A program made the translations under genes and the position numbers. A stretch of DNA of 64,000 bases from Thalassomonas sp. RHCl1 (GTDB taxonomy: Bacteria; Pseudomonadota; Gammaproteobacteria; Enterobacterales; Alteromonadaceae), in the NCBI RefSeq assembly GCF_947387555.1, contig NZ_CANDNZ010000005.1, positions 186,001-250,000 on the forward strand, given 5' to 3'. The notes beneath the pieces were generated by a model. It was given only the letters and a program-made list of their open reading frames with translations, searched no databases and was not told the origin of the DNA. Shown here piece after piece: positions 6,098 to 21,680 of the stretch (position 1 is the stretch's first letter; the number at the start of each line of letters is the position of its first letter).

Positions 6098-6553
6098 TTA
6101 TTGCTGTGATTTGAGTTCAACGGTATTACCATCGGGATCCTGGATATAAACCGAATCCCCAAATCCCTGGGCGCCGTAACGGGTATGAAACTGGCCGACT
6201 TTTATCCCTTTAGCAGTTAAATAATCATTAATTTCGCCGCTGGAAATGGCTTTTAGCTGCAGGCAAAAATGATCGAGGTTTTGCTCTGTTTTTGTCGGTG
6301 CTCCTCCTCCGGCCCTGCCCAGTTTGCTGCTGACATCAACTAAATCAATCAAGGCATTACCGGCGCGTAACTGGGTCAGAGCAGTTATTTTTTCATTACC
6401 GGCGACCCCCTCGGCTTCTTCGGTGATTTCTTCGGTGATTTCTTCGACAATGCGTTCCACACTGCAGCCGAGCACCTGACAGTAGAAGCTGACCATCTCA
6501 TCGACTTGTGCCGTTCTGAGCACCAGGTGATCAATTGCTGCAATTTCAAACAT
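6098..6553 (-). CDS. VOC family (glyoxalase/bleomycin resistance-fold) protein
   Basis: The start is placed at the ATG at 6553 (MFEIAAIDHLVLRTAQ) because AAGGAG lies seven bases upstream; an upstream in-frame ATG at 6577 has no such site. The 151-residue product shows the VOC pattern: an early beta strand with His (IDHLVLRT), a central NLDHFCLQL and the C-terminal QDPDGNTVELKS, whose Glu is the usual metal ligand. A glutamate-rich insertion (EEITEEITEEAEG), produced by a 12-bp tandem repeat, lengthens the loop after the first beta-alpha-beta unit. Substrate unknown. Confidence 0.8.
   Translation of the reverse strand: MFEIAAIDHLVLRTAQVDEMVSFYCQVLGCSVERIVEEITEEITEEAEGVAGNEKITALTQLRAGNALIDLVDVSSKLGRAGGGAPTKTEQNLDHFCLQLKAISSGEINDYLTAKGIKVGQFHTRYGAQGFGDSVYIQDPDGNTVELKSQQ
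6416..6439. repeat. Two tandem 12-bp repeats inside the VOC gene
   Basis: TTCTTCGGTGAT is present twice in tandem (6416-6427, 6428-6439) with a third degenerate copy following. In the protein this adds ITEE repeats to an acidic loop without breaking the frame. Confidence 0.85.
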
Positions 6554-17192: not shown

Positions 17193-17377
17193 ACCTATCT
17201 TCCATCTATCTTGGTTAAGATGAAAAAATTATGCCAAGGGAATGTGCAACGAATATGCAAACTTTATGTATTAATGTGAATCTGCAGGTTAGCCTGGCTG
17301 CAACAGATAATTACCGGCAAACCGGCAATTTAGTGACGAATTGCCGGTATTGTATATTTACCGCCAAACCTCCCTGG

Positions 17378-17665
17378 TTAGTGAACGATATGCGCCATTT
17401 TTTCATGCAAAACGACTATCTTCTGGGCGTAATGTTCAGCTTCGACTTCTGATAGTTTAGATATGATAGAATGCTTACCTCGCGGCAAAAGCGTCTCAAC
17501 AATATTGCGGTAATCATCAGACAATTCTTTTGGAATATCGGCTTCAACACAGATATGCAGCAAGTGACTAGTCACGGCATTTTCCAAACGACTTTTCATC
17601 GAGCCCGGCCCGACCAAATTAAACACCGCCATGTGTGTTTTTTCCAGACCATAAATATGAGACAT
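17378..17665 (-). CDS. Small protein of unknown function
   Basis: A 95-residue soluble protein; the start at ATG 17665 (MSHIYGLEKTHMAVF) is preferred because AAAGG is eight bases upstream, while the longer frame would begin with GTG at 17674 inside that site. No motif was recognised. The C-terminal half is predicted helical (ISKLSEVEAEHYAQKIVVLH). It shares its strand with the next unknown gene at 17800-18234 and may belong to the same accessory set. Confidence 0.55.
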   Translation of the reverse strand: MSHIYGLEKTHMAVFNLVGPGSMKSRLENAVTSHLLHICVEADIPKELSDDYRNIVETLLPRGKHSIISKLSEVEAEHYAQKIVVLHEKMAHIVH

Positions 17666-17799
17666 AGCGACCACCTTTAGTCTCGTTTACCTGATGTAAT
17701 TGTAGTCTGCTTAGTGATAGATACCTAGTATCCACCAGGGCTACTGGAGGCCCAATCGATATACAACACAAGAAAGTATCAAGCAACTTATATGGATGA

Positions 17800-18234
17800 T
17801 TAATAATATTGCTGTGTGACCGGGGAGTGAATGGTTGGCTCTTCCTGCTGGGCTTTTTTCATCGCCATAAGCGCCTTGGTATGAGAAATTTTTTGCAATT
17901 CCTGCACATACATCAGCAACTGTGCAGCGGTAATGAAGGGCATGACATTTTCATGAGTCACGGGGATACCGTCGTCCCCCCATTTTTGTGAAAATACCGA
18001 AAGTTTAAACTGACCGTTTTCCGCGTAGGCCACACACCATTCAGGTAAATAATCAATTAGAAAACGTTTTTGATAACCTGTACCCTGAGAGGTGGCAGGT
18101 GCACCGTTTTTATACATTAAACGGCCAAAAGAATAGGAGACACTGGCATCACCCCGGGCTTGATACTCGGTATTGTCGACAAAACCGACCATCTTAAGTA
18201 AGGTGAAAAATTCAGTTATTTTTGCAGGTGTCAC
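17800..18234 (-). CDS. Protein of unknown function, 144 residues
   Basis: A GTG start at 18234 is supported by AAGGA seven bases upstream. The product is soluble, with aromatic-rich central segments (FLIDYLPEWCVAYAENG) and a C-terminal helical region (FITAAQLLMYVQELQKISH). No family was recognised. It stands between two other minus-strand accessory genes. Confidence 0.6.
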   Translation of the reverse strand: MTPAKITEFFTLLKMVGFVDNTEYQARGDASVSYSFGRLMYKNGAPATSQGTGYQKRFLIDYLPEWCVAYAENGQFKLSVFSQKWGDDGIPVTHENVMPFITAAQLLMYVQELQKISHTKALMAMKKAQQEEPTIHSPVTQQYY

Positions 18235-18368
18235 GACTACATCCTTTTAATCACATAGGTACTAACTTAGCTGTAACAGAGCTCTGAAAGCCGCACTAAA
18301 TAAGTAATGCCAGAGTTGGTTGAAGATGTTGTGAGTAAGTTACGACTCATTATCAAACAAACCTGTCG

Positions 18369-18406
18369 ATAGTACTCCAGCATCCTCGCTGATAGTGGAG
18401 TACTAT
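18369..18406. terminator. Hairpin downstream of the repeat-protein gene
   Basis: A perfect 11-bp inverted repeat, ATAGTACTCCA (18369-18379) and its complement (18396-18406), with a 16-nt loop, about 120 bp past the stop of the repeat gene. There is no T-run on either side. It may be a terminator or an mRNA 3' stabiliser. Nothing else is seen in the 18235-18526 gap except a decayed repeat unit at its right end. Confidence 0.4.
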
Positions 18407-18526
18407 ACATTATACAAAGTGGAATGTGCTGCACATTTTGTTTTTCTATGTTTTTTAACTTATTAGCATTACAAAAAACACCTAGCCAAGCGAAGTTTCT
18501 GTAGCCTTTGGTAATACACGTTTACC

Positions 18527-19075
18527 CTATGTATTGAATGTTAGTGGCGGTACACGTTTACCACCGACATTAACTGCCAGCGGTGGTACTCGCTTACCAC
18601 CGACATTAACTGCCAGTGGCGGTACACGCTTGCCGCCGACATTAACCGCCAGTGGCGGTACACGTTTACCGCCGACATTAACTGCCAGCGGTGGTACTCG
18701 CTTGCCGCCGACATTAACCGCCAGTGGCGGTACACGCTTACCGCCGACATTAACCGCCAGCGGCGGTACACGCTTACCGCCGACATTAACCGCCAGCGGC
18801 GGTACACGCTTGCCGCCGACATTAACCGCCAGCGGCGGTACACGCTTGCCGCCGACATTAACTGCCAGTGGCGGTACACGCTTACCGCCGACATTAACCG
18901 CCAGTGGCGGTACACGCTTGCCGCCGACATTAACCGCCAGCGGTGGTACTCGCTTTCCGCCGACATTAAACGTTAGCGGTGATACGCATTTATCTCCCAC
19001 ACTTAAGGAAAAAGCTGTAGCCGAGGTAGATATAACTAAACATAAAAGTAAAGTAGCCAATTTAGGTAGGTTCAT
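18527..19075 (-). CDS. Secreted tandem-repeat protein (12 x VGGKRVPPLAVN), unknown function
   Basis: A 182-residue protein: signal peptide (about residues 1-21, ending STSATA), one degenerate unit (VGDKCVSPLTFN, 26-37), then twelve units VGGKRVPPLAVN, the last ending TFN. Ribosome site GGAG eight bases upstream of the ATG. DNA differences between units fall on third codon positions and leave the protein unchanged, so the sequence is under selection. Each unit has a dibasic KR. The periodicity could build a beta-solenoid or fibre, or the protein could be a precursor cut into identical peptides. No known family was recognised. The stop TAG falls inside a further decayed unit (in-frame GKRVLP beyond it). 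Confidence 0.72.
   Translation of the reverse strand: MNLPKLATLLLCLVISTSATAFSLSVGDKCVSPLTFNVGGKRVPPLAVNVGGKRVPPLAVNVGGKRVPPLAVNVGGKRVPPLAVNVGGKRVPPLAVNVGGKRVPPLAVNVGGKRVPPLAVNVGGKRVPPLAVNVGGKRVPPLAVNVGGKRVPPLAVNVGGKRVPPLAVNVGGKRVPPLTFNT
18533..18964. repeat. 36-bp coding tandem repeat, 12 units
   Basis: Twelve head-to-tail 36-bp units, with a degenerate unit at 18965-19000 and a decayed partial one at 18509-18526. Variant positions within the unit (for example TTA/TTG, CCA/CCG, ACT/ACC on the plus strand) are spaced by multiples of three. There are no unique spacers. Such an array is prone to unit gain and loss by slippage or recombination. Confidence 0.95.
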
Positions 19076-19197
19076 TATTTTTTCTCCAGTAATAGTGATA
19101 AAGAGTGGAATTCAATCCACTTCAACTATTATCTGAGTAAAAAATAACAAGGCAAAGACATGCCCTATGAGACCCGTTTTTTCCGTTTACTCCCGGA

Positions 19198-19899
19198 TCA
19201 AGCGGTTAAAATAAAACGAGATCGTAAGTAATCTTCGGTGAGATAAAAAAGTGAAGTAACGGCAATAGCATGCATAAAAACAGGATAAACCTGATAAACA
19301 TGTAACGGGTTTAAAACGGTCAAATGTCTAATCAAATACTCCGCCAGCATGGCGGCAAGAATGAAAACACTCCATTTTGATAGCCCATAAAACTTCCAGT
19401 CTAACGGTAAAGACTTCCCTCCCTTAAGCAAACGGTCGGTTAGGGGAACACGCATAAACAACAAATGCCGAGTGACTAAACTAAGCAAAAGCATACAAAC
19501 ATAGAAGTATATTTTTGGCGCAGGATAACCGGTAAAAAACCAAAAGAACTCAACCAGTACGATTAAAGTTAATAAGGGCGCACAGAAGAGAAGTACTAAT
19601 TTATCGTACTTTAACTTGTATAGGACAGCGACGGCCAATAAGTAAATGATGAGTTTAACATCAAAGTCGATTATCAAATAAGCTATCTCATCAAGAGAGC
19701 GTACAAGAATAATAATGAGAATCAGACCCGCCATATTGACGTCACGATTTTTTATTTTTATCAGGCCCCAAAGCATCAGGGCAACTAAAAACCAACGATC
19801 AAAATATTCGGCATAACCAAAGGTATAGACACCTATTAGCGCAAAAGTAATAACCAGTATCGGAGTAAATAACTTGCGCAGATATAAATTCAGTATCAT
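19198..19899 (-). CDS. Multi-pass membrane protein, unknown function
   Basis: A 233-residue highly hydrophobic protein with about seven membrane helices and no recognisable transporter signature. Its start overlaps the stop of the upstream XRE regulator gene (ATGA), so the two are translated together. Small XRE regulator plus membrane protein is a recurring two-gene arrangement, but the function of this one is not known. Confidence 0.7.
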   Translation of the reverse strand: MILNLYLRKLFTPILVITFALIGVYTFGYAEYFDRWFLVALMLWGLIKIKNRDVNMAGLILIIILVRSLDEIAYLIIDFDVKLIIYLLAVAVLYKLKYDKLVLLFCAPLLTLIVLVEFFWFFTGYPAPKIYFYVCMLLLSLVTRHLLFMRVPLTDRLLKGGKSLPLDWKFYGLSKWSVFILAAMLAEYLIRHLTVLNPLHVYQVYPVFMHAIAVTSLFYLTEDYLRSRFILTA

Positions 19900-20153
19900 G
19901 AATTTTGAAAGTTGAAAAACCTTAAGATCTGGCTTTTAAAAGATTCCTTGGTTTTTGCAGAAACTGTGCGGCGGCACACTGCCCACCAGGAGTTGACAAC
20001 TTCTATACTGAGCTTATCGATAGAGCCGACATATTCATTTTCAATGGCAACAACGGTTTCACGACTGAGGCCGATTCTCGACGCCAGCTCTTTTTGTGTT
20101 AACCCCGCCTCTTTGCGCAGACTTTTTAAATGCGCTCCTGAAAAATTTGCCAT
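19896..20153 (-). CDS. XRE family helix-turn-helix regulator
   Basis: An 85-residue protein with a clear Cro/CI-type helix-turn-helix in its N-terminal half (LRKEAGLTQKELASRIGLSR, about residues 12-31, then ETVVAIENEY). The C-terminal half is unusual and basic. It is coupled by a 4-bp ATGA overlap to the membrane protein gene, so it probably controls that protein or senses through it. Confidence 0.82.
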   Translation of the reverse strand: MANFSGAHLKSLRKEAGLTQKELASRIGLSRETVVAIENEYVGSIDKLSIEVVNSWWAVCRRTVSAKTKESFKSQILRFFNFQNS

Positions 20154-20339
20154 ATTAAAATCATACCTCTACAACTCATCCCTTTATTTTGGGGATCATG
20201 GTTATTTTTTATGCCTAAGTCAAGCGCTATGTTCAAACGCCTGTGCTTAGTTTTAACCTAGTATCTTCTATATCACAACAACTTGAGGACAAGCTCAAAA
20301 AACGCCCCCCATAAAAAAGTAATGGCTTCATTACCTTAA

Positions 20340-21680
20340 TTAACCGTTGACCAACTCCAGTTTTGCCATTTTACTTTTACAGCCCAAATATAAAACCAGG
20401 GTTTTAAGCATCAAATAAAATAAGCCGCTAAATTCAATCAGCAGTAACAGTGCAAACAGCCAGTAAAAGGCAGGATAAAGCACTGTCACCAGTAAACCCA
20501 AACCGCTGAATATATGGCTGATAAAAAGCAGGCGGCCATACTTTTTCGGTAACAACTCATGCATATTAGGCAAATACTGCATCGCCTGAAAATTCATTAA
20601 ACACTGTTGCTGCAAATGGTTATAACTTAAAAAAGGCAAGATCTTTAACAGCAATCCCTGAATAACCGAGAGCACATAAAAATAAAGGTACGCCGCCATC
20701 AGCCACATGTGTTTTTTGCTGTTAAACAGTTCAGGAAGAGCATCTTCTGGGATCAGGAAAACGGCGGTGATCACAAATAAACTCACCGACGATAAGCGCC
20801 AATAATCCAGGGTATTGTCAGGCACCTTACGTTTACGCCGGGCTATTACCCGCAATAAAACAGCAGCAAACAGACAGTTAAGCAGTAATAACAGCTGTAC
20901 GGGTTGATTCAGCACACCACTACCTTCACCACTGTTAACGCTGTTTAATCCCCGCTCAAATAACCAAAACAAAAGGACTAAAATCAGCAAGGGAAACGAT
21001 CGGCTCAGCCATTTGGGAAAATCAGGAGCAACATGGAACATGGGGATCACCTGAAAACTGACCCCGATAATCAACATGGCTACCCATCCCGCCAGCCCGG
21101 CGAACACATGTAAATTGGTGTAAACCTTGTGTCCGGAAATAAACTCAATGCCTAAATTGCGGCTAAGCAGCAAGCCCCCCAAGATCACGGTAACGGCTAA
21201 AGCTAATACCGCCAGGCGGATGGCATTTATCGTTGCCCCCTGGCTCAGCTTTTGCGATAACACCCAGGCCACCGCTGCCAAATATAAGAAAAACCCCGTA
21301 AGCAAAAGTGCCAGCGCCGTTTGCATCAAAAAAAACTGCTGCGGCTGCGGCCAGATAAAAGCTAACATCAAAGTCACACTGCCGCAGACATGCAACACAT
21401 GACAGGCTCCGCCAACTAAGCGTACCTTGGGAATACCTACCCCGCCGACCACAGGCAGCAACTGCAATAATGCTCCCATCATCACCGTGGTAATAAAACC
21501 TAAGGTAAAACCATGGGTGATGGTCAGCATGGCCGGATGCCAGCGGCTAAGCCAGGGATCCGGTCCGGCAAAAAAAATAAAACCCGCCAGCAAAATCACC
21601 ATCAACGCCGCGCTAATAAAATAACGAAACGGGACAGTTAACGGCGGCATCACAGAAAAAGATAAACCGCTGAGTTTCAT
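20340..21680 (-). CDS. Multi-pass membrane protein with conserved His, NnrS/haem-copper-like
   Basis: A 446-residue protein with about twelve hydrophobic helices. His residues sit in helices in a way reminiscent of haem-ligating membrane proteins (RWHPAMLTITHGFTLGF, GHKVYTNLHVFAGLAGW, VIPMFHVAPDF). The overall look is of NnrS-like or haem-copper-oxidase-subunit-I-like proteins. It overlaps the DUF2249 gene by 4 bp (ATGA) and is preceded by a haemerythrin gene. That combination is often linked to nitric oxide or low-oxygen metabolism. Family assignment is tentative. Confidence 0.6.
   Translation of the reverse strand: MKLSGLSFSVMPPLTVPFRYFISAALMVILLAGFIFFAGPDPWLSRWHPAMLTITHGFTLGFITTVMMGALLQLLPVVGGVGIPKVRLVGGACHVLHVCGSVTLMLAFIWPQPQQFFLMQTALALLLTGFFLYLAAVAWVLSQKLSQGATINAIRLAVLALAVTVILGGLLLSRNLGIEFISGHKVYTNLHVFAGLAGWVAMLIIGVSFQVIPMFHVAPDFPKWLSRSFPLLILVLLFWLFERGLNSVNSGEGSGVLNQPVQLLLLLNCLFAAVLLRVIARRKRKVPDNTLDYWRLSSVSLFVITAVFLIPEDALPELFNSKKHMWLMAAYLYFYVLSVIQGLLLKILPFLSYNHLQQQCLMNFQAMQYLPNMHELLPKKYGRLLFISHIFSGLGLLVTVLYPAFYWLFALLLLIEFSGLFYLMLKTLVLYLGCKSKMAKLELVNG

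Follow-up and report, generated by a model that had tools for sequence, protein, structure and literature searches.

What is the highly repetitive reading frame on the minus strand of this window (the whole stretch of 64,000 nucleotides analysed here), and what could keep a dozen copies of one short secreted element in a single gene?

A secreted and coding repeat protein

The repeat ORF and its parts were placed as follows.

18527-19075, minus strand: amplified peptide gene encoding 182 aa, ATG start, with orthologues in the three other genomes of the genus (G001, G002 and G003)
19013-19075, minus strand: signal peptide MNLPKLATLLLCLVISTSATA, with the cut after ATA (residue 21) judged by eye
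18965-19000, minus strand: degenerate first unit VGDKCVSPLTFN, preceding the array
18533-18964, minus strand: array of 11 x VGGKRVPPLAVN plus VGGKRVPPLTFN, unit 12 ending in LTFN
18482-18526, minus strand: in-frame remnant of a last core and C-terminal tail, beyond the TAG (18527-18529)

Tandem Repeats Finder delimits a 36-bp unit present 11.8 times (score 673) at 18546-18969; the window has a second tandem repeat, of 12 bp x 2.6, at 6416-6446. A sequence-only reading of the locus had described twelve perfect repeats whose DNA differs only at third codon positions. Eleven units are indeed identical at the protein level, but the twelfth departs from them and a degenerate unit lies ahead of the array. 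Likewise, all eight derived base changes (8/8) among the inner 11 units are synonymous and fall at third positions (expected synonymous fraction 0.32; P = 1e-4), whereas inclusion of the twelfth unit yields 10 synonymous and 2 non-synonymous changes (P = 4e-4). One antisense frame of the array is also mostly synonymous (9/11), so that the synonymous test alone cannot pick the strand; the minus strand was assigned because the start, the signal peptide and the ribosome-site region are conserved in three relatives. The description of the frame as a secreted, repetitive and coding ORF was borne out by its hydrophobic signal peptide, by a GGAG at 19084-19087 upstream of the ATG and by this conservation. 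The sequence-only reading had also seen a decayed unit after the TAG. In-frame sequence is present there (GKRVLPKATETSLG, closed by a stop), but its counterpart in G003 (L003) is a last core followed by an intact C-terminal tail (GGKRVPPKAIEPDTNSVRGGGVTEAFLG, also closed by a stop), and what was lost is therefore a C-terminus as much as a repeat.

The earlier statement that the protein belongs to no recognised family essentially holds, with no credible match in Pfam, no match among PDB sequences and all NCBIfam matches far below their cut-offs. Two candidates, Pfam DUF1952 (E 1e-4; 22.5 bits, the cut-off being 22) and phrog_30590 (E 0.003), lacked any individually significant stretch and were rejected as repeat artefacts. 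Plasmid tblastn matches (23 records) look like repeat-on-repeat alignments, the three of the 23 that were inspected being all antisense to an annotated CDS. Relatives were found neither by protein patterns in GTDB contigs and viral contigs nor by tblastn in phages, in searches that may omit near records. Codons resembling GGK[KR]VPP, searched as a DNA pattern in the four genomes of the genus, occur at 13 places outside the locus, and none of the nine that were translated is a comparable peptide gene.

The mature part turns over within the genus

In all four genomes of the genus (G000, which holds the window, and G001 to G003) the repeat-gene locus is flanked by the same two neighbours. Conservation across the four species covers the promoter region, a hairpin or palindrome, the ribosome-site region and the signal peptide, in which M1, N2, L3, K5, L6, A7, T8, C12 and L13 are invariant, but it does not extend to the mature part. 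The sequence-only reading had proposed comparing unit number across relatives, and that comparison returned 12 cores in G000, 11 in G003 (units VGGKRVPPLAFN), 14 in G002 (units AGGKKVPPVEVLLA, with a 14-residue period) and 1 in G001, where a single SGRKDPP is followed by 36 residues. Since the mature part differs in this way between species, it is the short core that is retained while the unit and its number turn over.

The repeat protein belongs to a three-gene module

A profile built from the four repeat proteins of the genus matched in 9 of 147 genomes of the family, representing 3 of 52 genera, and several of the new matches lay directly 3' of a homologue of the 233-aa membrane protein encoded next to the repeat gene. 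Upstream of the peptide gene, the window carries:

19896-20153, minus strand: first gene of the module, encoding an XRE/Cro-type HTH regulator of 85 aa (Pfam HTH_3, 1.1e-9) and overlapping the next gene by 4 nt
19198-19899, minus strand: polytopic membrane protein, 233 aa, second gene of the module, no family match
19128-19155, minus strand: putative peptide-gene promoter read from the sequence, with TTGCCT (19155-19150), 16 nt and GATAAT (19133-19128)
19105-19120, no strand: palindrome GTGGATTGAATTCCAC (GTGGA-N6-TCCAC), between the membrane-protein and peptide genes

The membrane-protein profile reached further, matching in 44 of 395 genomes of the same family (11 of 52 genera); in wider samples it matched in 5 of 394 genomes of the order and 2 of 398 of the phylum, every match falling in the home family, whose members here are probably marine gammaproteobacteria. 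It gave 78 places, from which 72 rows were used, several of them near-identical species pairs, after leaving out L141 (an internal stop and no long ORF) and five places of one cluster, L152. The recurring gene order is an XRE-type HTH regulator, the membrane protein and a secreted peptide with a core of approximately [GS][GST][KR]xxPP.

Sixty-nine distinct loci were testable for the peptide gene, having at least 250 nt downstream. An ORF with a signal peptide and a core lay on the same strand, no more than 700 nt downstream, in 56/69 under a first core pattern and in 64/69 under a looser final one; both patterns, and the HTH pattern, were composed after reading examples, the looser core pattern having been made for forms that the first had missed, and signal peptides were called by a crude script rule and not by SignalP. 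Neither pattern found such an ORF on the opposite strand (0/69). Shuffled DNA (shuffled in two-base blocks and not dinucleotide-exact) gave 14/1380 with the first pattern and 19/1380 with the looser one, and other genes gave 5/110, four of these being module peptides themselves. The looser pattern missed L117 (at a contig end), L096 (a deviating peptide that the first pattern catches), L109, L143 and L144; the last four have no pattern-positive peptide despite 700 nt being available, and count against the signalling circuit proposed below. The HTH motif was found upstream of 69 of the 72 membrane-protein homologues, and in 26 of these cases the HTH and membrane genes share 1 or 4 nt. It was not found upstream in L130, where the HTH gene is located after the peptide gene, nor in L138 and L144, exceptions that also weigh against the circuit.

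The cluster L152 (G069 contig 13, 116000-126500) consists of six tandem genes that each encode an N-terminal HTH and a membrane domain in one protein, with Pfam HTH at E <= 0.01 in 5/6 and above the cut-off in 4. This fusion links the regulator and the membrane protein. No peptide candidate was seen there among ATG-started ORFs of 33-120 aa, so that the first two genes of the module can exist without the third, again a point against the circuit. The cluster is interrupted by what appears, by eye, to be a two-ORF transposase.

In Pfam, the HTH protein of the window has only HTH-type matches and one chance-level viral hit, and its PADLOC and PHROGs matches are generic. At 85 aa (relatives measure about 82-104 aa), it contains no recognised peptide-binding domain. 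Together, the genomic association makes it well supported that the repeat gene is the third gene of this module and encodes its small secreted peptide in multiplied form. No title or abstract opening among those listed from open-licence literature describes a module of XRE regulator, membrane protein and peptide.

Copy number changes by two genetic routes

Across the 72 membrane-protein rows, the peptide is a single gene in 29, an intragenic array in 27 and a set of tandem genes in 7, 5 rows being truncated at contig ends and 4 having no pattern-positive peptide; an array was defined as at least 3 pattern cores per ORF, and L102 and L129, with two cores, were counted as single. The repeat period spans 11-24 residues among 18 array families, and single-copy relatives within the genus are 49-65 aa long. 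A quick tree of the membrane protein implied at least 10 changes between array and non-array states, a rough number in view of long branches and near-copies, for which L060, L125 and L142 were labelled by eye and the five contig-end rows and the four without a pattern-positive peptide were omitted.

Differences between close relatives take both forms. G000 carries a second complete module (contig 8, L058) with a single-copy 49-aa peptide, AVGGKTKPPVAAKCSWWDQLVMSVIG; this second module, matched across species by the membrane-protein tree with flanking genes read for L058 and L060 only, has one core each in G000, G001 and G002 and eight GGRTKPP units in G003. In another genus (L136 and L137), one species has three one-core genes where its sister has one three-core gene. 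The dose or valency of the core is thus the likely target of selection, as we infer it from these patterns. Whatever the function of the module, its loci constitute a clean natural experiment in which one secreted element has been multiplied by two genetic routes, and the differences between sister species make it directly testable why peptide copy number is selected.

A candidate peptide-sensing circuit

Given an exported peptide, a dedicated membrane protein and a dedicated DNA-binding protein, the simplest arrangement would be a circuit of peptide ligand, membrane sensor and XRE regulator in which copy number sets the dose, a reading of the gene content to which we assign a probability of about 0.5. 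In such a circuit the peptide, judging from its signal peptide, would be exported by Sec and its GGKxxPP element displayed or released in the periplasm or beyond it; there, the membrane protein would sense this element and relay its state to the cytoplasmic XRE protein, which would act at GTGGA-N6-TCCAC ahead of the peptide gene and close an autoregulatory, pheromone-like loop. Multiplication of the core would raise the dose or valency of ligand per transcript, and repeat turnover would shift that dose quickly. The core is alike between paralogues, which would be unusual for a specificity-determining pheromone and counts against the circuit.

The palindrome could serve the XRE protein as an operator or form a hairpin in the 5' mRNA of the peptide gene, and its fixed spacing and near-invariant outer bases lead us to favour the operator. 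GTGGA-N2..10-TCCAC occurs between the membrane-protein and peptide genes in 28/72 loci, as against 2/3600 shuffles (of single bases, not dinucleotide-exact), and in 0/72 membrane-protein gene bodies. The looser form RTGG-N8-CCAY is present at that position in 36/72 loci, spread over 9 genera by tree labels, and absent from the other 36, an absence that argues against the circuit. So do three further results: a search of the 500 nt preceding the membrane gene, the region of the HTH gene, yielded no strict palindrome; it is absent from the second module of G000; and in G002 the sole strict palindrome lies elsewhere, the copy at the locus having one base changed in an outer half. In the 7.56-Mb genome G000 the exact GTGGA-N6-TCCAC form is a single site, at the peptide locus (reversed-pattern control 7), and G001, G002 and G003 have 4, 1 and 2 sites (controls 5, 13 and 4). 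Both promoter hexamers of the window are retained across the four species of the genus, and visual inspection showed ATAAT- or CATACT-like hexamers preceding the palindrome at many other loci; with such a -10-like hexamer frequently just upstream, the palindrome would sit near the transcription start.

The membrane protein of the window has no family in Pfam, NCBIfam, PADLOC or PHROGs, and a Pfam scan of 71 members produced two weak single-member matches. AlphaFold2 models it, from 71 sequences, as all helical, with nine helices, eight of them long (pLDDT 91.1, pTM 0.85), and Foldseek found no fold match to this model in the PDB (best E 0.68). Residues conserved in at least 75% of the 71 rows include E71, E117, W120, R144, R150, D167, E187, Y188 and R191. 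Loop charges mostly fit an N-in/C-in topology with eight spanning helices; loop 190-203, which should lie outside, has 1.51 K/R per row and speaks against it. On this topology the HTH fused in L152 would be cytoplasmic, and E71, E117, E187 and R191 would face the periplasm, where the peptide would be.

A broader proposal is more tentative, and we consider it somewhat less than an even bet: that the module represents a new class of peptide sensing in Gram-negative bacteria, with a membrane receptor of new fold that reads the secreted GGKxxPP peptide and is coupled to, or in one genome fused with, an XRE repressor or activator, and with selection tuning signal strength through peptide copy number, interchangeably by tandem genes or by arrays that grow and shrink between sister species. 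If true, a Gram-negative module present across many genera of one family, with an unfamiliar membrane partner, would amount to a new signalling class.

Core, tail and alternative functions

In many single-copy peptides the core begins a few residues past the likely, guessed signal-peptidase site, as in A/TGGKKEPP, A/SGGKKEPP, A/AVGGKTKPP, A/GSKQKPP and A/TSGTKPPP (the slash marking a cut guessed by script or by eye), and is followed by about 7-40 variable residues that often form an aromatic C-terminal tail. At least two W, F or Y occur in the last 16 residues of 26/38 non-array rows, two of which are truncated at contig ends, as compared with 6/27 array rows. The aromatic tail being mostly missing from arrays, it is the core, more than the tail, that arrays retain.

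These features bear on an unlikely alternative, in which the peptide is an antimicrobial, the membrane protein provides immunity or export, the HTH protein is a local regulator, and arrays or gene copies raise the yield. Small exported peptides, often aromatic-tailed in their non-array form, beside a regulator and a membrane protein would fit such a system, as would the presence of more than one module in several genomes. Yet the arrays keep the KxxPP core while mostly dispensing with the tail, the script-cut mature non-array peptides have net charges of -7 to +4 and are not typically cationic, and PADLOC and PHROGs offer no match for the membrane protein and only generic ones for the HTH protein.

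It is unlikely, too, that the membrane protein cleaves, modifies or releases the peptide as a membrane enzyme or exporter, the array then being a polyprotein cut into equal peptides. The adjacency of the two genes and the charged residues among the conserved positions of the membrane protein (E71, E117, R144, R150, D167, E187 and R191) are consistent with this idea. In 10/18 array families, moreover, the linker has [VLITQ]A directly ahead of the following core, as at the end of the signal peptide (permutation P 0.008, for a motif picked post hoc), a resemblance that hints at repeated cleavage. Against it, alanine alone is not enriched at that linker position (P 0.31), the window's own array lacks the motif, and the sole Peptidase_M50B match is weak (E 0.006) and confined to 1/71 members. 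The array may still encode a multi-copy peptide, since its unrepeated counterpart is already a gene for a small secreted peptide.

A structural or adhesive repeat protein, such as a fibre, a solenoid or an elastin-like matrix, is improbable: secreted low-complexity repeats would suit one, but the genus has single-copy relatives, the period varies among array families, and the regulator and membrane protein would be left unexplained. The structure prediction that the sequence-only reading had called for was carried out and gave, from an alignment of 4 sequences, an unconfident model (pLDDT 36.6, pTM 0.16) that confirms no beta fold, and together with the 11-24-residue spread in period it leaves the beta-solenoid or fibre that had been suggested unsupported. 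The least probable reading is the multi-copy prohormone processed at dibasic sites that had also been put forward, for although KR recurs in each full unit here and KK in G002, two adjacent basic residues are found in the core at only 25/65 loci and are absent from 40 (homologous cores include GGKMVPP, GGKTKPP, GSKQKPP and SSRQIPP), and single-copy forms require no internal cleavage.

Judged by eye, the HTH protein has a C-terminus (19896-19990 in the window, and in homologues, for example ESFFSTVMDYFGF) resembling the aromatic tails of single-copy peptides (AWYEAILDFLGL and SWYDSILSFFSF), a likeness that could reflect a shared binding partner.

Comparison with known systems

Dedicated peptide-signal circuits are mostly known from Gram-positive bacteria, where ComR/ComS, Rgg/SHP, PlcR/PapR and PrgX/PrgY/iCF10 constitute peptide pheromone circuits. 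Like these, the module combines an XRE-type regulator with an adjacent gene for a small secreted peptide, and like PrgX/PrgY it also includes a membrane protein. It differs in the 85-aa HTH protein without a recognised peptide-binding domain, in the family-less membrane protein, in hosts that are probably gammaproteobacteria and in a peptide that may be arrayed. A small peptide gene with a dedicated adjoining regulator is thus found here (peptide ORF in 64/69 loci and HTH motif in 69/72, with export deduced from signal peptides), but neither the HTH nor the membrane protein matches a receptor of known type, be it a TPR regulator or a histidine kinase. The module resembles Gram-positive pheromone loci, and we do not file it as a member of them.

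Agr-type systems (AgrB/AgrD/AgrC) likewise pair the gene of a small peptide with a polytopic membrane protein dedicated to it; they have a histidine kinase and a response regulator, whereas the adjoining regulator of the module is an HTH protein and its membrane protein has no Pfam family. The repeat protein shares with fungal alpha-factor-like precursors the secretion of a variable number of near-identical units, but it is bacterial, lacks a conserved dibasic site and is multiplied through tandem genes as well. Multi-core RiPP precursors, such as those of cyanobactins and graspetides, also hold several near-identical cores each; here, a signal peptide stands in place of a recognised leader, and a Pfam search of the HTH and membrane proteins, covering these two genes of the module, found no modifying-enzyme family. 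The leading readings are known kinds of system built from unfamiliar parts.

Sequence downstream of the peptide gene

The peptide gene is followed by a GTG-started gene of 144 aa (17800-18234) that matches at 90-99% in the four genomes of the genus and has no match in the other 143 of the 147 family genomes searched. A scan of 17300-20400 with Rfam gave nothing near a gathering score, leaving 18235-18450 without an Rfam family. This stretch of some 210 nt, upstream of the 144-aa gene, is near-invariant in the four species while the adjoining repeat gene turns over; it contains a promoter-like TATAAT and inverted repeats, and is possibly a regulatory leader or a small RNA.
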